64,000 nucleotides of DNA from Corynespora cassiicola (Eukaryota; Ascomycota; Dothideomycetes; Pleosporales; Corynesporascaceae), in assembly GCA_022059125.1 (NCBI GenBank), contig JAEUWY010000001.1:3162001-3226000 (forward strand), in the 5' to 3' direction. The translations under genes and the position numbers were made by a program. The notes beneath the pieces are model-generated. The model searched no databases and was not told the DNA's origin. It saw nothing but the letters and a program-made list of their open reading frames with translations. Positions 9,234 through 47,793 of the stretch are shown piece after piece; the stretch's first letter is position 1, and each line of letters begins with the position of its first letter.

Positions 9234-11153
9234 ATGAAGTTCATCAACTCCGTTCTCGCACTGCTGGCGGCCATTTCGCTCGCGTTAGCTGTCGCCGTCC
9301 CCAATCCTGCCTACAGTCTCGGTGAGTGTGTCCCTGGAGATTCAGCCTGCCGTGGATACGACCTTTTCCATTGCTCCTTCATTCGACCGTATTACTACGA
9401 GTTCGCTCGCACATGCCACAAGCAGTGTGTCAAGGTAGACGATCGAAACGCCATGTGCAGGGACAGTCATCTTCAAGTCATGTCACGCCAGGAATCGTCG
9501 GAATACCAGCAGCAGCAGCAGTCACGGGAACAGTCGGCCGCACAGTGCATACCTGGAAGCACAATTTGTCGCGGTACCTTCGTCTATCAATGTATCAACT
9601 TGCATTCGTTTGACTTCGTTCCATACATGACGTGTGAGAAGGAATGCGTTTCGGAGGATTTCCAACATGCGCACTGTAAGGCCGCTGGCGATGAGGTCAA
9701 GTCGCACCAGAAAGAGAAGGAGCACGAGATGAATGACCATCAAGAGCAGGAGCAACAAGAGCTGGTTGAGTGTTATCCTGGAGAAAGAGTCTGTGTGGGC
9801 AAAGAGCTACTGCAATGCACCATAACTCATCCATACACCTTCAAGATTGCTAGTCACTGCCCTGGCATCTGTATCGAAGCGAACATTACGCCGCCCAATC
9901 GTTCGGCTTCTTGCGGACCGAAAGGGGAGGTCTTGCGTAGGATACTTCCTCGCCGTGAGCGGTGCGTCCCAGGTGTGGCAGTTTGCAAGGGTAAGGACAT
10001 GTTGAAGTGAACTTCACACGTTCTCATCTTTTCATACATTCCCACAACAGTGACGGCGGCCTCAGCGAAGAATTACCTCCCCTTCCACGCCCTGTTCGAT
10101 ATTGAAGGATAGCTGATGGTTCGAAGCCAGTTCCAACGAAGCACATTGGATCTGTCATCCCATTTGCTTTACTTTCTAAGCTACCTGGCTATTCGATATG
10201 AGGAAATACTAGCGCATGCGGTCGGACTACTGGACCACTAACCACCGACTGCTGACTGCTGGCTGTGTTTCGACTTGATATCCTGGCGACTTTTGAGACA
10301 CATCCCACCTAAAGCATTCCGTCTCGAACTTTGCTAACGAAATATAACAGATGTCCAAGTCCATAGCGAGGAAATGAACAAGCGCTCTGTCCCCGCATCC
10401 AAGAGCAAGAGGACTCGCATCATCAATGACGAAGGCGCTGCCGGTGCTGCCGGCATCGACGAGTCCGAGCCCTTCACCACCGAGAGACAGGGCACTCGCA
10501 TCATCAACGATAAGCGCTCTAGCCCCGTAACTATGAGCAAGAGGACACGCATCATCAATGATGAAGCTGCCGCCGGCGCTGACGCGTCTGAGCCCTTCAG
10601 CACAGAGAGGGAGGGCACTCGCATCATCAACGATAAACGACCTAGCCCCAAAGACAAGATCAAGAGGACCCGCATCATCAATGACGGTTTCATGAATGAC
10701 GGCGAGCCATTTACCAGCGATCGTGAGGGAACTCGCATTATCAATGATGGAAGCTCCGGCCCAATGGACAAGAGCAAGAGGACCCGCATCATCAACGATG
10801 GTTCCATGGGCGATGGCGAGCCTTTCACCACTGAGAGCCAGGGCACCCGCATCATCAACGACGAGGCCTCGAAGCGCGACGCAGAGCCCTACTACCCGGG
10901 CGCTGACCTCATTGCCCCCCACCACACCGAGTGCGAACCAGGCGAGGGCATGTGCGACAAGTACAACTACACGGCCTTTACTTGTGGCGACGATGGGGAG
11001 TGGGACGTGTACATGAAGTGCAACGAGTACAGCTGCCGCATCGATAGCCAGGGCCAGTCGTTCTGCCGTCATGGTGGTACCTCGCCTCCCGGTCTCATCA
11101 CCAAATCACAGTCAGCTACGACCCCTCCGACCGCCGCTGCGTTGGCCTTCTAA
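9234..11153 (+). CDS. Secreted Cys-module protein with Kex2-spaced TRIIND repeats
   Basis: The predicted product is 519 residues from two exons (9234-9990 and 10351-11153). Residues 1-19 to 21 form a signal peptide. Three Cys modules follow, each opening C-x-PG-x3-C (first Cys at residue 32), with six to seven Cys each, then the start of a fourth (CVPGVAVC). After the junction come four long repeats, each with two copies of TRIIND, eight in total, flanked by Lys-Arg or Gly. A last Cys module (CEPGEGMC to FCR) and a Ser/Thr/Pro tail end the protein. KR sites suggest cleavage by the Golgi protease Kex2, as in fungal Kex2-processed repeat proteins, some of which are RiPP precursors. The 360-nt intron is supported by a GTAAGG donor, GCTAAC branch, AACAG acceptor and matching phase, but it is long. 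The alternative is two adjacent genes, the second starting at 10374 without a signal peptide. Confidence 0.7.
9991..10350 (+). other. Putative 360-nt intron with Cys-module remnant
   Basis: Borders are GTAAGG and AACAG with a GCTAAC branch site 12 nt before the acceptor, joined in phase 1. If not removed, translation continues GKDMLK and stops at the TGA at 10008-10010, exactly where the other modules have their next cysteine (compare GKELLQC in module three). The first bases of the intron therefore look like former module-coding sequence. Confidence 0.55.
10405..10870 (+). repeat. In-frame tandem repeat coding TRIIND units
   Basis: Four degenerate units of about 100-130 nt. Each carries two near-identical ACTCGCATCATCAA-like segments that encode TRIIND, one preceded by Lys-Arg and one by Gly. 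The spacer peptides are acidic and share the element EPFT/S. The hexapeptide codons are much better conserved than the spacers. Confidence 0.9.
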
Positions 11154-19177: not shown

Positions 19178-20911
19178 TCAACCAAGCTCAGTTGGGACGT
19201 TTACTTCAGCCTGCGACGCAGCCGACCGTCTACGCTGCTTGGGCGCTGTTGCGACAATATTCTTCCGTGGTCGACCTCGGGGTCGTTTAACTTCTTGAAT
19301 GACCTTTCGTGGCCGGCCTCGGGGTCGTTTTTCTTCTTGTACAATCTCCCGTGGTCGCTTTTCTTCTTGTACGATCTTCCGTGGTCGTCCTCGTGGTAAT
19401 TTTTCTTCTTGCACAATCTTCCGCGGTCGGCCTCGAGGTTGCTTTTCTTCTTGTACAATCTTCCGCGGTCGGCCTCGGGGTCGCTTTGCTTCTTGCACAA
19501 CCTTCCGCGGTCGGCCTGGAGGTCGTTTCACAGCTGGCCTTATTTCGATTGCATTCTTTTTCGGTCGGCCTTTGGTTGGCTTGACAGCTGGTGACTCGAT
19601 TACATCTTTCGCTGTTTCAATTATCGCTCTTCTCCGGCTTTGGGTTTGATTGGCTTGTGGCGTTTCAATCCTTTTTGGTGTACTCAGGGCATGGGTCGCC
19701 TTTTTGTGGACTGTACTTGTGTACTTTATTTGTGGCGTTTCGATCGTGCTGTTGTCTGGTTGAGCCCGGGCTCGCTTTATAATTGGTGTTTCAGCCTTGG
19801 TCTTCCGTCGGCGGCGTATTAATCGTTTGGTATTGTTCGGTGTTTCAACGGCTGGGATATCAGAGTCTTTTCTCTGGGACTGAGCGCAACTCGCTTTGAC
19901 AACATCGGGTTCAATGGGTTGTTTTCGAGGCCGGCCAACGGGCCTACGGACAGTCAATTTCAGCCGTCTAGGCCTCGGGGGTACTGCCAGGTTTTCCTTT
20001 TCGAGCAAAGCCCGCAACTCTTCTCCTTCAAGCCCGGCTGTTGCCACTTCATAAATCTCCTCCTTGGTTTTCCCAATGTATTCGCGGTTAGAGAATATAG
20101 GGGTCCCCATCCACGTGAGAGTAATGTCCTTTTGTACGAGCGAAGTGTAGATGCTCTTATTCAATCCTCTCTTATGAAGAGACCCTCTCATCTCTTCCCA
20201 GTTCCAGTCTCCTCCCTGGTATTTGACCTTGGGCTCAAGCATCAATGGCTTGTGCCTGAGCGTGACACCAAGACCCTGCAGTCCCTTATCAGCTGCAGCC
20301 CGATTCCACAAAAATTGCTCTATGGCCCCTTTATCACGAGTTACTTTGAGGAACCCCATAGGATATGTACTCTGGCCCAAGGTTTCTAATAGACCGCGTG
20401 TTGCAGTTCTGTCCGAGACGATCAAACCGAGAACATCTTTATTCCACCACTCGGGTGGGAGACCCTGGAAACTTCCCTCCAGCTCGCGAGCCACTGCCGG
20501 AGGGATCTGGGTTGCTCTTGCTTTGCATTGTAGGAAGACGGGTATGGGCTCACGGAATGGTGGCAAGACCCAATGACCCATCAAATCTATGCCGTCATCC
20601 AATCGCTTCCCTGTCCGAATCAGGGAGAAGCCCAGGCGAGTGAGTGCGTCCGCGACAACGTATTCGAAGTGGGTGCCGATATAGACTGTTGTGTGAGGTT
20701 TGAGGCCAGTCCGCTCGGCATAATCAAGGAACGTAGGCATGGAATTGTGAAATTTGGATCCTGGGCCTTTGGGGAGCTTTGGTATATCTACGGGCGTGGT
20801 GGTCGCGGTCGACGTGGTGAGGATGCGGCGGAGGATGTGCGGAGGTGCTCGCGAGTGCCGGTAAAGGAGTGGTACGAGTTTGGGCCATGGTCGGCGATAG
20901 ATGCGGAGCAT
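19178..20911 (-). CDS. RRG7: RRG7-type mitochondrial nuclease-fold protein with AT-hook tail
   Basis: This is a 577-residue intronless gene. The N-terminus (1-45) is rich in Arg, Ser and Leu and free of acidic residues, a typical mitochondrial presequence. Residues 58-290 form the DUF2034/RRG7 domain, named in yeast for a requirement in respiratory growth. Within it, E83, D109 (GIDL) and Q128-C129-K130 match the spacing of a PD-(D/E)XK restriction-nuclease core. The rest is unusual: after a basic linker with one AT hook (VGRPRK), residues from about 445 carry a near-perfect array of RGRPRK AT-hook units separated by IVQEEK-like spacers, one of them degenerate. AT hooks bind the minor groove of AT-rich DNA, so binding to AT-rich mitochondrial DNA is a reasonable inference. 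Dual nuclear targeting is also possible. Confidence 0.85.
   Translation of the reverse strand: MLRIYRRPWPKLVPLLYRHSRAPPHILRRILTTSTATTTPVDIPKLPKGPGSKFHNSMPTFLDYAERTGLKPHTTVYIGTHFEYVVADALTRLGFSLIRTGKRLDDGIDLMGHWVLPPFREPIPVFLQCKARATQIPPAVARELEGSFQGLPPEWWNKDVLGLIVSDRTATRGLLETLGQSTYPMGFLKVTRDKGAIEQFLWNRAAADKGLQGLGVTLRHKPLMLEPKVKYQGGDWNWEEMRGSLHKRGLNKSIYTSLVQKDITLTWMGTPIFSNREYIGKTKEEIYEVATAGLEGEELRALLEKENLAVPPRPRRLKLTVRRPVGRPRKQPIEPDVVKASCAQSQRKDSDIPAVETPNNTKRLIRRRRKTKAETPIIKRARAQPDNSTIETPQIKYTSTVHKKATHALSTPKRIETPQANQTQSRRRAIIETAKDVIESPAVKPTKGRPKKNAIEIRPAVKRPPGRPRKVVQEAKRPRGRPRKIVQEEKQPRGRPRKIVQEEKLPRGRPRKIVQEEKRPREIVQEEKRPRGRPRKVIQEVKRPRGRPRKNIVATAPKQRRRSAASQAEVNVPTELG
19260..19533 (-). repeat. 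Coding minisatellite, AT-hook array
   Basis: About six to seven units of roughly 40-45 bp, each encoding a PRGRPRK hook plus an IVQEEK-like spacer. One unit at about 19350-19375 is shortened and has lost the GRPRK core, leaving RPREIV. Neighbouring units are nearly identical at the DNA level, which suggests recent expansion. Confidence 0.85.
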
Positions 20912-21175
20912 TACTGACTATGAGAACGAGCAATGTAAGAAAGAAAGATCATATTTACAGAAAAAGGCGCGGGGAAGCCACGGCAATGGGTGTCGAGGGG
21001 TGAATATGGCGTGAAACGAAGGGCGCATCTTTTCGCGCGACGGGTGACGCGCCAAGGCCGAACGGCGCGCGCCGTTAGTCCAGCCGTCCACGCTCGGGCC
21101 GACATGGTCGACATCGACGTCTTTCCACCCCGCCGCCCATCTCACAACCAGTCACTCGTTGCTCTCTCACTCAAC

Positions 21176-24831: not shown

Positions 24832-27800
24832 TCATTGATCAGAAGTCTTGGCTGTTCCTGCTTCGAGAGCTGAATCTCTGTTCCCCCTCTCCATCTCCTT
24901 TCTCATGGCCTTAAGGCTTCTCATGAAGGGTATAAAACCAGGACCGAAAATCCCTATTGTTTGTCCATTTTCCTCGTTGGATACATTTCTGTCGGGTTCG
25001 ATGCCCGAATTCTGGCTCGCGCTGTCATTCTCTTCAGTTGGAATAGTTGATCTTTTAAAACCCTCTTTTATCCTTTTCTTTGCTGTTTTGGAAAGGCGGT
25101 AACCAGGTTGATACAGCTTATCATCAAGAATCCTAGCATTTGCAAGGGCCACGACTGTAATGCAGAGAGCCACAATAGCCGTAGAGATCATTCCAATCAA
25201 CTCAGATCTTCCAGGGGTGCCTGAAATACTGAATATTGCGGTCGCAAACCCAAGCGGGAGGAACACTACAGTAACGTACGTAAAGAATCGCACATTTTCG
25301 GCGCTCTGGAAGCTCAGCTCGTTCCTTGTCGACTCCAATCTACTGATGAGCGACATTTTTAAACGTTGAATGTCAGTTCTGTGATGTTGCAGATCTCTTA
25401 TCTTCTGATTGTTCAATATCGATAATTTGGTAATGGCTGAACGATACTTTCGTTCATCGTTCTTCGTCCATCTGGGTCTTTGAGGTTCACGATCTTTCTC
25501 ACGAGTCATCCAAGCTGTAATCTTCTCCAAGGTTCCATCCAGATCATCTTCAATTACTTGCAAGGTGAACTGGATTGGTGGCCATTTTTTACTGAAGGAC
25601 AGGTATCTACCGTTGTCCATTGGGGCAGAAAATAAAGCGTTGAAAACTTTGCGAACACCGCGAGCTGTGGGTTCGACCTGTGTTTCCGTTGCGAGTAGTA
25701 AAACTAGATAACTGCTGATTTCTTTCAAGATTTCCTGATATCGGTCCAGGATCTCTTGAATAATCCGATCAAAGAGAAGAAGCTCTAGGACCTTACGTTG
25801 ACGCCATGGCCTTTTTTCACGGTCTGTGGGGCTCAGAAGTTTGGTTGACTGAACAAGTTCCTCGAAACTTTTTGGAGTTCGAACATTATTATCTCCCATG
25901 GAATATATAGGCGAATTGGGATTGTCTTTCGGGTCAGTTTCCAAAAAACGGCAAGTCCAGTACCGGTCGAAGAAGTCGCCGATGAACAGAAATCCAATAG
26001 AAGCTTGTTCCATTCTCTTGCCACCGCCAGGAAATTTGATTACATTCTCTTGACTTCCATTGTCTCCGCTGATGAGTCGATAGAAAGAGAGTTGGAGTTC
26101 CGTGTTCCATACATTTGAAACTGCTGTCACTTCATCGAAAAAGTATTTTTCGCGAGCTAAGTGTCTTTCAAAGAAGGTCTTGACGAATGGCGCCTCGGAG
26201 CGAGAGTGGGCTAGTTTACGAATGTATGCGATGTGTTTGTCTGAGTTTGGCAACCATATGAGTCTCTTCTTGCTATCAATTGCCGTTCGTCGTCCTTTGA
26301 GTTTTTCACAGATACCCTCAACGTTAAGAATTTCGCAAGGATCCTCTGAAGGAACTTTCGTCCTTCTTTCTGTTTTGCGCTTTGTCTTGTGTGCACTTTT
26401 GGGAATATCCAAAATTACTCCTTTGAGGAGCTTTTCCTGTTCAACGGGTAGTGCCTCCAATCTCTGACTCCGCTGCAGTGCGTATTCGGGTTCTAACATG
26501 AATTTTTCCAGCTCGAGATCGAAGAAATCAATATCATCAGGGGTATTATCTTGGTTCTGGGGATCGAAATCTAAGAAATCGGGATAAGGATAAAGCCACT
26601 CATCAGACATCTCGATAATACTATTTTGGTCGATAAGAGTGTTGAAAGGCATGGATTTCTTCATCTCAGGATTCCGTAGTTCTTGCTTTTGTGAATCTGG
26701 ATTCATATCCTTTTTCCGCATTGCGCTCACAGTAGTTGCTCGAGATAGCTTAGAGCGTACCAACTCTGTATCAGAGCTTCTTCTTATGGGCCTTGCAGGT
26801 GCAGTAGAACTCGTCGAGAACGGTTCTTTTCTGCCATATACCCAAAGGATATAAGGTATCTCGAAGCTCGCGTGCCAGTAGAAATCTCTCCAGATTGGAT
26901 TATCAAAAAGCTCAGGCTTTTTGGTGGTATAATTGATCTGTCCAGGCAAAAGTCCATTTGGGGAACTACTGCCAAGTAGTACCTCCATGGCCTCGCCGAA
27001 CATATCCTCTGCCAATCTGGAATTAATACGAAATCCTTTTTGGGCCAGTATCAGCGCCACAGCGTAACGCAGTGGATTGTCCCAGGTAGAGTCCTCGTTG
27101 TCCTTGTGGAATTTTTGAGATTCAAGAGTGGCCTTCCACAACGCGTCTGATTTGCCAAAAAAGGCAGGGGTGGTATCATAAAGAAGGGCAGAATCCCTTG
27201 AATGAAATATAAACCTCGTTTCTGCTAAAGTACGTGATAGCGCGATCATACTCTTATGTGACGTGGTATTTTCTGTGGTGAAACGCTTCAAGACGTTTTT
27301 CTGAAAATCTGCGGGCCAGAACCCATCTTTCAACAGTCCACTGGCTACAGAATTTTCGGCTCGTTTTCTTTTTGTCTTATTCATCTGCTGTGTTGTTTCG
27401 AGTTCCCCATCGATATCGAGATCTTTCAATGATTGAAGCGCTCGCCAAATCCACACATGATCGTCCAGTCGATACTTCTGAGTTCCAGGCCGAGGGAAGG
27501 CAGTAAGTTGACGTTTGTCCTCTTTCCTCAATTCTTCAATCCATTCTCTAGCGACGATCTTCAACATACGAGTGGCAGCTTTTACAGTAACCACATCATC
27601 ATCTTCCTTGAATTTCGATGCAAAGTCCGCAATTTTAATGATATGAAACGGAGTATCTGTCAAAGAGGTGGCAGCCAAGACTTCCACTGACTCGGGATTT
27701 AGTATTTCTCGCCCGGTGACCCAATAATTAGCCGCAAATATTGTTTCAGGTTTGACCCTCTTAATCAACCATTCTAAATGTGCTGCACAGGTATCTCGGA

Positions 27801-29279
27801 TCCTTTGACGGGTAGTTTTGGCCATTTCTCGCACTCCAGAGTGGTTATTTGACTCTTGAGGTTTCAAATGTTCAAACATTGCAACTAAAAATTGAAACGT
27901 GAAGCTTGTGGAAGTCAACTTTCCGGCTTTCAAAGACATGGTGGATTGCATCTAAACTTACAAGCTTGATGATGTAATGATACGATGGCCTGATATATCA
28001 CCACAAGTCAAAGCAACAGGTGGTTTGATGGTTCTGATCGTCATATCTGATCTGTTCGTAACGGGTTCTGGTGGGACTGGAATACTACAGACAGAAAGTA
28101 TATGTTCTAAGTTTCTCCGAAAAACGAAGTCCAAGTGGGGGTCCGAGGAGAAACTTAATTTCGTATATTGAGTTTCGGCGAGTAACATCTCTATATTATA
28201 GTACGAGGGAATGGAAACCAAGTCGGCTATAGTCCTGGTATCATCCTGAATGAACTGGAGCTTGTAAGCCGTTACGAACTCCAGTGGTGTTCCGGGCTCA
28301 AGTTGGTAATTCTTGTCTCGTAACTTTATTCTGAATGAGGACAATTCGCCACTCACTCTACCTTCCTGTTCGATATCAAGAGGTTCGCCGTTCATGAAGA
28401 AGACGATAGTAAGGACTATAGTACCAAGAATGTTTTCCTCACCATACCCTGCATGAGCAAAGATGATAAGATCGTTTTCCGGGCCGACATAAGTTTTGTA
28501 TTCTTTGTCATGGACTGTGGCTTCGTTGAATTTGTGGCTGGTGTTGAGAAAATCCAACTCTCGAATCGAAATATCTGAATCGAATTTTAGATCCCATGGC
28601 ATCTGAAAAGTGTCTCCGTTTGACGTGTAGGTATCTTGTATATACACACCGTTGTTGTGCACGAAGAAACTTGATTCCAAAGCTAGCTTCTCAGTCTCGG
28701 CAGTAAAGTGTGGCCAACGATCACGTATAAACCCCGAGGAGACATTAGATGCAGCAAGATCGCGAAATGCATTAATCGAGTCTTCGAGGTACGGGCCAAT
28801 CGAAACGTAGTTGACTAACTGTTCCATTCGGTCCACGATGAAAAACGGTTCATCTGTTGCCCAGGAATCGACGCTGAAGAGGCCCGAGCGGCCTGTACCG
28901 AGAAATCGAGTGACTTGAATAAGGTCACCCTTGGAGTTGACACTTGCCGTTACACCCTCTTCCCCGAAAGAAAAGTACGTGCGGGCATTTCGGGCCACGG
29001 GGTCTGCCTTCTCAGGTATGGAGATGTAATCTTCCTTCCGAATGGTAGTTTTAGACGAACTACCTAGAATATCCAGTCAGTCAGCTGATAAATCTTAGAT
29101 GTTTCTCATACTAACCTTTTGATGCCACTGGAGATTCTGCGTTGGAGAGGCACATCGTTGGACGGTATTTTTGATCCGTCTGAAATACTGCCGGGAGAGG
29201 TCTGAGATGGCTCTAGCAACTTTGGACTACTTGGGATTTGCGGTGCAGCTTGAACTTGGGGCGTTGGTGATGAGGGCAT
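24832..29279 (-). CDS. Large fungal CorA-like membrane protein
   Basis: The product is 1444 residues from three exons: 29279-29116, 29059-27962 and 27904-24832. Intron 1 is GTTAGT to GGTAG and intron 2 is GTAAGT to CACAAG with a GTTGAC branch. Phases match and restore the family sequence YFSFGEEGVTASV near the start and SSSFFTFQFLVAMFEHLKPQ across intron 2. The long N-terminal part is specific to these fungal proteins. Near the C-terminus a coiled-coil region leads to two membrane helices (YVTVVFLPLGFATAIFSI and a second helix about 10 residues on), as in CorA Mg2+ channels. The canonical GMN signature after the first helix is absent (SGTPG), so ion transport is uncertain. The gene is far larger than classical CorA. 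A TATTTAA element lies 64 bp upstream. Confidence 0.85.
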
Positions 29280-41345: not shown

Positions 41346-42678
41346 GATGGCTATATTATGTTATTTTCTTGTTTTAGTGCTGGAGTTTTATTGATGGCAG
41401 CTTGTACATTAAGGTTCGAGCGGATCTCTGGTTTCAGAAATTCATGTAGCGTTCTTGGTTGAACACTGGAGCTTAGTCTATCATTTTATATCAATACATA
41501 GACGAACTTTTTGTCTCAGAATTTGATTCACAGGCAGAAGTCAATCTCCTTTGGCTAGTTTTTTTGCCTTCACAGTAGCTTGATCCTGTGACTGACGCTT
41601 GGGCCACTAATACTGCAATTTCTCCCCACTGTCTGTCACCATCATGTTTTCTTGAAACCGTCAAATATTGAATATTATTTTATTCTATATCTTGAGCCAT
41701 TAATACATATCTTAATCGGCGTACATTTTGTCCGTTGAGATTGTTGATATTTAAAACCACAGTGAGCTGTTCTTGCCCCAGTCACTCCCGCAAACAACAC
41801 CTTCGGAGCTATGCATTCATTTACCCTCTTTCGGCGTGGGACATAAATTAAATATAATCATCGCTAGTACTGGACGCATCTAGAAACTGTTCTCTATAGG
41901 CTTGTTAGAAGTTGTGGTGTCCAGCCATTTCCAATGTTAATCAAATATTGAAAGCTGCAACGTTCTTCCACGAACGAAATTCCGTTCATTACATAGTCCA
42001 AATCAATAAAAAAAGGTCGCGATCATTTGTATTTGAAAGCACGACATCTCAGTGCGGGCAAGGTTATCCTCACTTGCATCGTTTGTCCCTCCTGAAATTT
42101 TCCTAAGCAAATTTCAATACTGAAAACATTATGAAGTATCTATCATAGGCTTATTGTCCCCAAAGGCGATTTCCTAGCCCGAATATGAAGAGCGACAAAA
42201 GTCATCGAATCTTAAACTATATCCCAAACTGTCCTCCCATTAGCAATCCGACCATCGGGGATCCGATAGAAGTCTCCAGAGCGCTTGGCAGACACCCTTT
42301 TTCATATACGATCGACGCCTGATTGATGGATCTGGGCGGAGTAGCATACCAGTAGTTCGACCTCTGTGGCCGAATCTATTTATATTAGGACACCTCGTTT
42401 CGCTAAGAGCCTCCGCGCAACCCGGTATTCGAATCGCGGTTAATTCGCGGAGATTTTTAGCACTACAAGCGCCACCCTTGCGCAAGACCATCAATCTCGA
42501 TATCGCGAAACATTTTGATTAACTTGATTCGTATCCAATTTCGGGGCCTTGTGAGCGGGCTGACTGTCTGGCGGAGTACAAATGGTAGACTTTCGAAGCA
42601 AGTTGAAGATGTTATCTTACTTTGGTACTCGTTTGCAAATAGAAAAATTCAGGTCGGGGCTGAAGCGTGTTTATCATC
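41346..42678. other. AT-rich intergenic region
   Basis: About 1.3 kb upstream of the AA9 gene. The left half is AT-rich and stop-dense on both strands. A frame at 42.24-42.49 kb (minus) has no recognisable content. Confidence 0.45.
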
Positions 42679-43404
42679 ATGAAATTCACCACATCTTTAT
42701 TCGCCATCTCGGCGCTCGCATCTACAGCATTAGCCCACTGGAACTACGACCGCTTGATCCACAATGGAAAGATCGTCGGCGACTACTACACCTACATTCG
42801 CCGCACCTCCAACTCCAACTCTCCCGTCACCGACGTCGCCTCCAACGACATGCGCTGCAACGTCGGTGGCGCATCAGGTGCCAATACGCAGACCTACACC
42901 GTCGCCGCCGGCGACGAGATCGGCTTTGTCATCAACGTGAACTTTGGGCACCCGGGCCCTCAACAAGTGTACATCTCCAAGGCCCCCTCTGCAGCCAAAG
43001 ACTACGACGGAAGCGGGTCTTGGACCAAGATCTACAGTCTGACCACCAAGGCGATCACGGACCAGGGGCTGCAGTGGGCGGGCGACGGTATGACTTCGTT
43101 CTTGTTCAAGATCCCTGCCGAAACGCCTGCGGGCGAGTATCTCGTTCGTGCAGAGGGGTTGGCTCTGCATGGGGCTGGAACCGTCGGTGGGGCACAGTGG
43201 TATATTGGGTGTGCGCAGATCAAGGTTACTGGGAGCGGGAGTGGCAATCTGAGCCCTAGTGTCAAGATTCCGGGCGTTTACAAGGGAGATGAACCGGGGA
43301 TCAAGATCAATATTTATTATCCGCCTCCGACTAGCTATACGGCTCCCGGGCCGGCGCTCTGGCCGGCAGGGACGCAGGAGCAACACGCTGCCAAGCAGCT
43401 ATGA
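42679..43404 (+). CDS. AA9 lytic polysaccharide monooxygenase
   Basis: A 241-residue intronless gene for a secreted copper enzyme that oxidatively cleaves cellulose or related beta-glucans. The signal peptide is residues 1-19, with cleavage after ALA exposing His20, which with His91 (FGHPGPQQ) forms the copper histidine brace. Tyr175 within GGAQWYIGCAQI is the axial residue and Gln173 belongs to the conserved active-site set. Cys60 and Cys178 should form the usual disulfide. The catalytic domain ends around residue 222 and no CBM1 follows, only a short Pro-rich tail. The ATG at 42679 is used, since the frame upstream has only a GTG and would spoil the signal peptide. Confidence 0.95.
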   Translation: MKFTTSLFAISALASTALAHWNYDRLIHNGKIVGDYYTYIRRTSNSNSPVTDVASNDMRCNVGGASGANTQTYTVAAGDEIGFVINVNFGHPGPQQVYISKAPSAAKDYDGSGSWTKIYSLTTKAITDQGLQWAGDGMTSFLFKIPAETPAGEYLVRAEGLALHGAGTVGGAQWYIGCAQIKVTGSGSGNLSPSVKIPGVYKGDEPGIKINIYYPPPTSYTAPGPALWPAGTQEQHAAKQL

Positions 43405-46122: not shown

Positions 46123-47793
46123 TCATCTCGGAGTAATCTTGAGAAGGTTGGTTACCATTCGCGGATTTTCCACCCGTGCATTAGCTCCGCTACCTTGAAG
46201 GTCTCCATTTCCTCCATCCCCTGCAGCTATCATCCTCTCCCTACTCCCTGAGTTCCAGCTCAGATATATGCTGCCACCGCCATCCAAATTCAATACCTGG
46301 CTTGCTCGACCAAGTGCAGTGTTCTGAAAATGCTGCAAAAAGATGCCAATTAATTTTCTCATCTTGTTGAGGTCGACACCAAATTTCCTACTAGATGCAG
46401 TGTACGCGAAGAGATATTTGTCAGTGCCGATGATAACAATGACAAGACGCTCGTTGCGTTGACTTGCGTGCGCAAGGCTCCCGGGAACTCTAGAGAGTGG
46501 AGTTCTTATTCGGTTAATGCGGTACTGAAATTCTTTGGCTCTCAAGTTCAAGGCTGTCTTGAGTGATGGGCCGCTCCATAGATAGGTATTGTCTTCACCC
46601 TCAAGCTTTTTGTAGTGTGGTACATAAGCTGGGTCGACTCCCACAGTATGCTGAGTTGAGCTTGTCGGACCCACGGAGGCGAACGCATTGGGATTAGTAG
46701 CTGCGTTGGCGTAGAAAAAGAAACCGCCATTCGAGAGAATGTAGTCGCCCCCTGCGCGAGCGAGAGTGGGAGGATCGGTTCCGCCAAGAGAATTTCCCAC
46801 AACTGACAAGGCTGAGTTGGCGATTTTGACTACGTCAAGTTTCCCTTGCTCTCCCATTCCCGTCAGTATTTTGTAAGGCTTGTCTTTCGCTTTGACGACT
46901 CTTTGCCATCCTTCATCGCCCCTGAACGTCCACAATGTCACTTTGTTTCGTTTTAGCTGTTCCATCTTATACCACCGAGCAACATCGGGCCGTGTGCAGC
47001 TGAGGAGGTTTCCTCGAGGGTACAGCGGCTTGCCAAGTACTTGTGGAAGAATTCCTTGTAGATAGTCTCGGGGGGTCTTCTTGCTCCCTGTAAGCTTTCC
47101 ATTTCTCACCTCCTGATCTGTCTGATCTGGACACTGATTAGGAGGTGTTTTTGGGGGAGTCTTCGGTGGAGTTTTTGGAGTTTTAGGCGGTGTCTTGGGC
47201 GGTGTCGTAGGAGTCTTTGGAGTCTTGGGCGGTGTTTTTGGTGGGGTCTTTGGAGAATTTGGCTTCACCCTGGCTCTCCGGTTCCTGGTAACTCCTCCAT
47301 TGCGCCGCCTCTGTAGCTGCCTCCAAAAGCTTCGAGGCTTATTTTGCCATTCTTCTTCCTTGGACTCATCTTCTTCAGATATATCGCCCTGTTTTCCAAA
47401 ACCTGGTTCGTCTTTTTCCTCGCGCCTCTCCTGTATCGCTGTAGATATGTCGTACAGAGCTCCCTGAGTTTGAGATATACCCCCAATAATAGCCTCGGAA
47501 GTGATACACTGGTCCAATATAGTTTGAAACCCAAGAATGCAGTGCTCTTAATCGAAAGGTTGATCATTTAGGTGGTTTATTGTTAACAAAATTGGTCCAC
47601 AGTGCTTTGTGGTCGGATATTCATCACTTGTTGTAGTGCAAATATCCTGGATACAATTTTCGGCTGCTTCTACAAGCGATCCCACGCTTGTGTGTCTGTC
47701 AGTGCTGGTGTTATCACAGACAACATCATGAATTGCTTTTGTTGCGCCGAATCTGAAGAATGCCCCAAGGGCGAGGGGCAGGGTAAATCGCAT
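46123..47793 (-). pseudogene. Secreted NAGPA-type phosphodiester glycosidase gene with one in-frame stop
   Basis: One frame runs 556 codons from MRFTLPLALGAFF (signal peptide at 47793) to ITPR, broken only by a TAA at 47548-47550. Before the stop there is a Cys-containing segment (AENCIQDIC, KHCGP). After it the protein resumes with EHCILGFQTILDQC, so sense is maintained across the break. Then come a basic stretch, a KTPP/KTPKTP proline-rich linker and a C-terminal domain of about 300 residues. That domain has SNGGFFFY, then VLNLDGGGSIYLSW and RMVTNLLKI, the marks of the NAGPA/phosphodiester glycosidase family. No intron that removes the stop fits the phase. It may be a recent loss, a sequencing error or stop-codon readthrough. 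The enzyme's substrate in fungi is unknown. Confidence 0.7.
47145..47262 (-). repeat. Proline-threonine-lysine coding repeat
   Basis: Tandem 9-15 bp units encoding KTPPKTPP and KTPKTP as the linker of the NAGPA-like protein. Confidence 0.85.

Follow-up and report, generated by a model that had tools for sequence, protein, structure and literature searches.

The 64,000-nucleotide (nt) window of DNA from the plant-pathogenic fungus Corynespora cassiicola analysed in this study (contig C1, positions 3162001-3226000; the genome comprises 44.35 Mb in 23 contigs) holds at its positions 9234-11153, on the forward strand, a gene that encodes eight exact copies of the hexapeptide TRIIND, set between Cys modules in what is predicted to be a secreted precursor. 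The gene begins with an ATG at 9234 and ends with a TAA at 11153, and since a straight reading between these two points holds four stop codons, it needs an intron. A predicted intron of 360 nt (9991-10350) joins two open frames and gives a protein of 519 amino acids (aa). The initial annotation had placed a secreted precursor over the same stretch, and its start and end were right by way of this one predicted intron; the protein also has a signal-like start (putative signal peptide, mean Kyte-Doolittle value of 2.57 over residues 6-21). The parts of the gene are as follows:

9234..9990 (+): exon 1, with the signal-like start, Cys modules M1-M3 and a truncated M4; open frame from the ATG at 9234, donor GTAAGG at 9991
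9234..9296 (+): putative signal peptide, residues ~1-21, from hydropathy, with several possible small-residue cut sites
9324..9467 (+): Cys module M1 (C-x-P-G-x3-C-x-G-x5-C-x13-C-x3-C-x9-C), from the module pattern and an AlphaFold2 model
9543..9686 (+): Cys module M2, from the module pattern
9768..9923 (+): Cys module M3, from the module pattern
9936..9956 (+): two Arg-Arg sites of the spliced protein, residues 235-236 and 240-241, downstream of M1-M3
9960..9989 (+): truncated Cys module M4 (RCVPGVAVCK), broken off by the intron shortly past the second Cys
9991..10350 (+): predicted intron of 360 nt that joins the frames (donor GTAAGG, branch site CTAAC, acceptor ACAG)
10351..11153 (+): exon 2, with the TRIIND array and the C-terminal Cys module, up to the TAA; open frame in the spliced model
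10380..10877 (+): eight Lys-Arg sites, starting at 10380, 10407, 10512, 10539, 10635, 10662, 10776 and 10872 (residues 263, 272, 307, 316, 348, 357, 395 and 427)
10929..11075 (+): C-terminal Cys module M5, from the module pattern, with looser Cys spacing

The TRIIND copies start at 10413, 10494, 10545, 10617, 10668, 10731, 10782 and 10845, and, exactly as the initial annotation described them, all eight are present in the spliced protein and are preceded alternately by Lys-Arg (copies 1, 3, 5 and 7) and by Gly (copies 2, 4, 6 and 8). Comparison of the eight 18-nt blocks in all 28 pairs gave 57 synonymous and 0 nonsynonymous differences (proportion of synonymous differences, pS, 0.45; proportion of nonsynonymous differences, pN, 0). 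With only synonymous differences among them, the copies have diverged without loss of the peptide, so that TRIIND is under purifying selection among these internal copies. In a neutral simulation (20000 runs per tree, where runs reaching 40 pairwise nucleotide differences were taken as qualifying), all eight peptides were identical in 0 of 16602 qualifying runs on a star tree and in 3 of 15558 on a balanced tree. The whole-genome scan for the TRIIND pattern, in which TSIIND was also allowed, returned the eight copies and one TSIIND elsewhere, while the reversed control pattern had one match. The spacers had been described as far less conserved, which holds for the stretches after TRIIND (pN 0.50 after odd and 0.53 after even copies, gapless alignment), and the anticipated conservation of the hexapeptide over the spacers is indeed found among the eight internal copies (pN 0 vs. 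about 0.5). The nine codons ahead of the even copies, EPF[ST][ST][ED][RS][QE]G, are, however, fairly well conserved too (pN 0.15, pS 0.50).

Read in the other five frames, the TRIIND blocks give 7 to 57 nonsynonymous differences, so the sense frame has the fewest of the six. Antisense frames across the gene are open over 292 and 184 aa; an antisense gene was nevertheless rejected, because the TRIIND blocks in antisense frames show up to 57 nonsynonymous differences, and 7 in the best case, compared with 0 in the sense frame. The antisense frame with 7 nonsynonymous and 35 synonymous differences has the same wobble positions as the sense frame.

There are ten dibasic sites in the precursor, eight Lys-Arg (KR) and two Arg-Arg (RR), and the genome has a kexin, with one scored P-domain match (contig C8, E-value 2.5e-30) whose frame matches the solved kexin 2id4 with an E-value of 4.8e-184. 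An in-silico digest, with a cut after each KR and RR and the signal peptide set at 20 residues, gave four products with TRIIND:

10413..10511 (+): predicted Kex2 product 1, 33 aa, TRIIND...EPFTTERQG-TRIIND, with TRIIND at 10413-10430 and 10494-10511
10545..10634 (+): predicted Kex2 product 2, 30 aa, with TRIIND at 10545-10562 and 10617-10634
10668..10775 (+): predicted Kex2 product 3, 36 aa, with TRIIND at 10668-10685 and 10731-10748, then GSSGPMDKS
10782..10871 (+): predicted Kex2 product 4, 30 aa, with TRIIND at 10782-10799 and 10845-10862, then EAS

All four predicted peptides begin with TRIIND and have the second TRIIND at or near the end, and they are acidic, with net charges of -4, -4, -3 and -4. 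The digest also gives three 7-residue spacers (SVPASKS, SSPVTMS and PSPKDKI). From the N-terminal side the digest gives a three-module fragment of 214 residues with 18 Cys, a three-residue scrap and a 21-residue piece with two Cys, and from the C-terminal side a 91-residue piece with six Cys. This last piece begins with DA-EP, a STE13-like pair which follows the last KR (residues 427-428; window 10872-10889) and stands before the C-terminal Cys part, unlike what is seen at the other dibasic sites. As for the initial claim that the hexapeptides lie between Lys-Arg sites, KR does precede the odd copies, but not one of the eight copies is immediately flanked by dibasic sites at both ends, and a free hexapeptide core was rejected on this ground. 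Ahead of the even copies there is no conserved basic residue (R stands three residues upstream in three of the four, S in the fourth), and because these inner copies have no conserved basic site ahead, the likely product is the two-headed peptide. The hexapeptide as released core, as first proposed, has to give way to predicted products of 30-36 aa in which TRIIND occurs twice.

The Cys modules reported at both ends of the protein were confirmed, with three full six-Cys modules and a truncated one on the N-terminal side, and one full module on the C-terminal side. Full modules have the spacing C-x-P-G-x3-C-x-G-x5-C-x13-C-x3-C-x9-13-C. The remainder of M4, checked by eye, is not read on in any of the three forward frames of the intron, and the break in this module gives the impression that insertion of the TRIIND array has interrupted a series of modules. 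The AlphaFold2 model of M1, based on an alignment of the four full modules, has a predicted local distance difference test score (pLDDT) of 94.3, while modelling of exon 1 from its single sequence gave a poor result (pLDDT 51.8), which was not used. The modelled module shows weak resemblance to a domain likened to chitin-binding folds, and the fold comparison also gave pacifastin-inhibitor rows, again weak; the lack of other folds in this comparison is not read as a new fold. Against Pfam, M2 had a Gamma-thionin match below the cut-off (E-value 0.008), the Cys modules had no CBM_14 match up to an E-value of 10 (genome-wide, none was above the cut-off), and the precursor had no hydrophobin match. 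The profile of the Cys modules gave two chance-level rows among solved structures (E-values 6.5 and 6.6), and the repeat region none. An NCBIfam match to ureidoglycolate lyase (E-value 1.9e-4; 20.9 bits, with the cut-off at 212) was taken as chance. Within the genome, exon 1 and M5 each match only themselves, so no paralogues were found.

KEX2-processed repeat proteins (KEPs) are a defined, yet poorly understood, class of fungal proteins (Le Marquer 2019, PMC6339444; Umemura 2020, PMC7329392), and the published criteria were applied here by hand, not with the authors' pipelines. Three or more similar fragments, each bounded by dibasic sites, are required (8-100 aa long according to Umemura, PMC7329392), and the precursor has four (30-36 aa), while Le Marquer (PMC6339444) asks for repeats over at least 15% of the protein length, and here the stretches from TRIIND to TRIIND alone make up 22.5%. 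The start is hydrophobic with plausible cut sites, as judged by hydropathy only, and a kexin is present in the genome. By these repeat criteria the precursor is a KEP, and in its predicted cleavage it works like one. A repeat-containing precursor of the Kex2 type, with a signal-like start and Cys modules, is supported as initially proposed; that it belongs to no known class was too strong a statement, considering that KEPs are defined, that linear KEP peptides are known (PMC9769878) and that Hum3 is similar (PMC4617103). Corynespora is listed under KEP type G-9 (PMC7329392), an entry that may be the TRIIND gene or another one, and the Results text of PMC6339444 does not include TRIIND among the motifs that it writes out.

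We consider it probable that the gene encodes a KEP which acts as a secreted polyprotein and releases linear two-headed peptides. The signal peptide would send the precursor into the secretory pathway, and the kexin of this genome would cut after its Lys-Arg and Arg-Arg sites. This would set free two Cys proteins, one with three modules and one with a single module, together with the short spacers and the four peptides, which are linear, acidic and 30-36 residues in length. The terminal Lys-Arg would be trimmed by a putative KEX1-type enzyme. The active form is likely to be a two-headed ligand, its second TRIIND preceded by Gly, rather than the free hexapeptide; both heads may bind a partner, and the Cys modules may bind a cell-wall sugar. 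To hypothesize further, and only tentatively, bivalent peptides with TRIIND ends on a flexible acidic linker might cross-link a receptor or wall partner or gather it into clusters, with the co-released Cys modules bound to the cell-wall sugar. If true, a single Kex2 polyprotein would supply both parts of a kit for adhesion or signalling, and we know of no counterpart to this.

Several points weigh against the processed polyprotein. The splice, the secretion and the cutting of the precursor are all predictions made from the sequence. An intron of 360 nt is long for such a fungus and M4 stops at it, so that two genes or another splice come into question. The KR codons ahead of the odd copies are without synonymous change (pS 0), and therefore selection on the KR sites is not demonstrable. 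When 66-nt blocks are compared, the sense frame (pN 0.22, pS 0.53) and one antisense frame (pN 0.23, pS 0.44) are so close that these blocks alone cannot settle the strand. The description "two-ended" is exact in only two of the four peptides, the others being extended by GSSGPMDKS and EAS, and KR stands directly after copies 2 and 4, not after copies 6 and 8. Finally, protein searches, in each of which only the about 8000 candidates sharing most words were scored, found no homologue with the whole spliced protein (E-value up to 0.001) or with residues 262-500 (E-value up to 10). The candidates were about 286-908 aa long, a range which misses a model limited to exon 1 (258 aa) or one that starts at the first ATG of exon 2 (259 aa), and because shorter deposited models fall outside it, this null result does not equal absence of the gene from other species. 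Fungi are present in the database, since a search with the neighbouring TBC-domain protein returned fungal proteins (99% identity with a protein of C. cassiicola Philippines, next best 70%), and the absence of C. cassiicola's own protein from the results suggests that a different model, or none, has been deposited.

Regarding another splice, 43 three-exon models are open, and the one inspected singly, which is the sole model to pass the donor-motif filter, is without a branch site in the first intron and still leaves M4 incomplete. It is very improbable that two genes are present, namely a Cys-module protein and a separate or dead downstream frame. Such an arrangement would suit the long intron and the cut-off M4, and the unspliced frame of exon 1 does meet a TGA at 10008-10010 after DMLK, but the two frames join, with a fitting donor, branch site and acceptor; when read from its initial ATG, exon 2 begins MNKRSVPASK, without a signal-like start, and yet its TRIIND is under selection. 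Possible, although doubtful, is an unprocessed or partly processed protein of the cell wall or surface, comparable to the repetitive Ustilago maydis effector Rsp3, in which the Cys modules would anchor, the TRIIND array would serve for multivalent binding or shielding, and KR would be incidental; against this speak the KR directly ahead of TRIIND in all four units and the ten dibasic sites which lie between the two Cys parts and inside the array.

A cyclised RiPP (ribosomally synthesised and post-translationally modified peptide) of the dikaritin type is hardly to be expected. The repeats are Kex2-spaced and the genome has at least 26 UstYa/DUF3328 matches, but none is near: on C1, the closest scored one lies 1.79 Mb from the TRIIND gene, which makes a dikaritin RiPP unlikely and agrees with the initial annotation that the window has no UstYa-like oxidase. 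Dikaritin cores usually contain aromatic residues, while TRIIND has none. The Pfam matches of the 26 scanned open reading frames (ORFs) of the window include no RiPP enzyme by name and no tyrosinase, with no family-directed search made for the latter. Grouped UstYa matches, as candidate dikaritin loci, were seen at C5 131863-133704, C1 1331411-1336198 and C15 1970914-1973752. Repellent-like surface peptides in the style of Rep1 and Hum3, which would self-assemble on hyphae with the RII cores as sticky ends, are also unlikely. Their size is similar (Rep1 repeats of 34-55 aa, Hum3 repeats of 31-36 aa) and Hum3 has a hydrophobin domain, whereas the repeats of both are described as amphipathic and imperfect (PMC4617103) and the TRIIND peptides are acidic (net charge -3 to -4). 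An alpha-pheromone precursor was rejected, as all four TRIIND peptides start with TR with no XA/XP pair ahead and the PYGxPxG core is absent from the protein. The Pleosporales pheromone core PYG[LM]P[IV]G, as a DNA pattern, had 0 matches genome-wide, and a true pheromone gene to compare with was therefore not found.

Across the window, 16 of the 26 scanned ORFs had a Pfam match at an E-value of 0.001 or better, including TBC GAP, RSE1/CPSF1-like, RRG7, Med21, a C2-domain protein, transporters, AA9, Serinc and P450, and Rfam had no match anywhere in the window. The following were noted:

19178..20917 (-): RRG7-like protein whose C-terminal part has AT-hook-like repeats (RPRGRPRK) in an array
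24832..29076 (-): two big neighbouring ORFs, one of 1039 aa with only a CorA-like match below the cut-off, and one of 372 aa without a Pfam match
42664..43401 (+): AA9 lytic polysaccharide monooxygenase ORF (Pfam)
46123..47547 (-): ORF of 474 aa with a PKTP-rich repeat stretch, without a Pfam match

The internal repeats reveal the residues under selection, and in this way TRIIND and the two-headed layout stand out as the parts to test ahead of experimental work. Should the peptides be released, C. cassiicola would gain a defined set of linear peptides to look for; in a 2018 paper, cassiicolin is given as its only characterised effector (PMC5840194). Among the literature matches listed, there was nothing about a TRIIND peptide, and nothing on C. 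cassiicola with Kex2 or RiPP or on KEPs in Dothideomycetes.

Compared with known systems, the TRIIND precursor shares with KEPs the signal-like start and the similar fragments between dibasic sites, and differs from them in that its repeat holds the hexapeptide twice and that Cys modules are present at both ends. Hydrophobins are Cys-rich. In Hum3 of Ustilago maydis, the repeats are mostly parted by putative Kex2 motifs and followed by a hydrophobin domain, so an extra domain beside Kex2 repeats has a precedent; cutting by Kex2 is shown for Rep1 and predicted for Hum3 (PMC4617103). The repeat length is alike in these proteins, but the TRIIND peptides are acidic with an invariant hexapeptide. 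Rsp3 of U. maydis has a signal peptide, a Cys-rich region and a long repeat region as well, although it is predicted to be non-processed (PMC5923269), unlike a precursor with ten dibasic sites. With dikaritins, e.g., ustiloxin and phomopsin, a secreted repeat precursor cut by Kex2 is shared (PMC9769878), without their aromatic residues or a nearby UstYa match. Ascomycete alpha-pheromone precursors also have Kex2-spaced secreted repeats and linear peptides, and the TRIIND precursor has one STE13-like DA-EP; however, its peptides exceed the length stated for pheromones (9-24 aa), and DA-EP stands ahead of the C-terminal Cys part instead of the repeats. The invariant hexapeptide, present twice in each peptide, and the Cys modules on both sides are the unusual features of this precursor.
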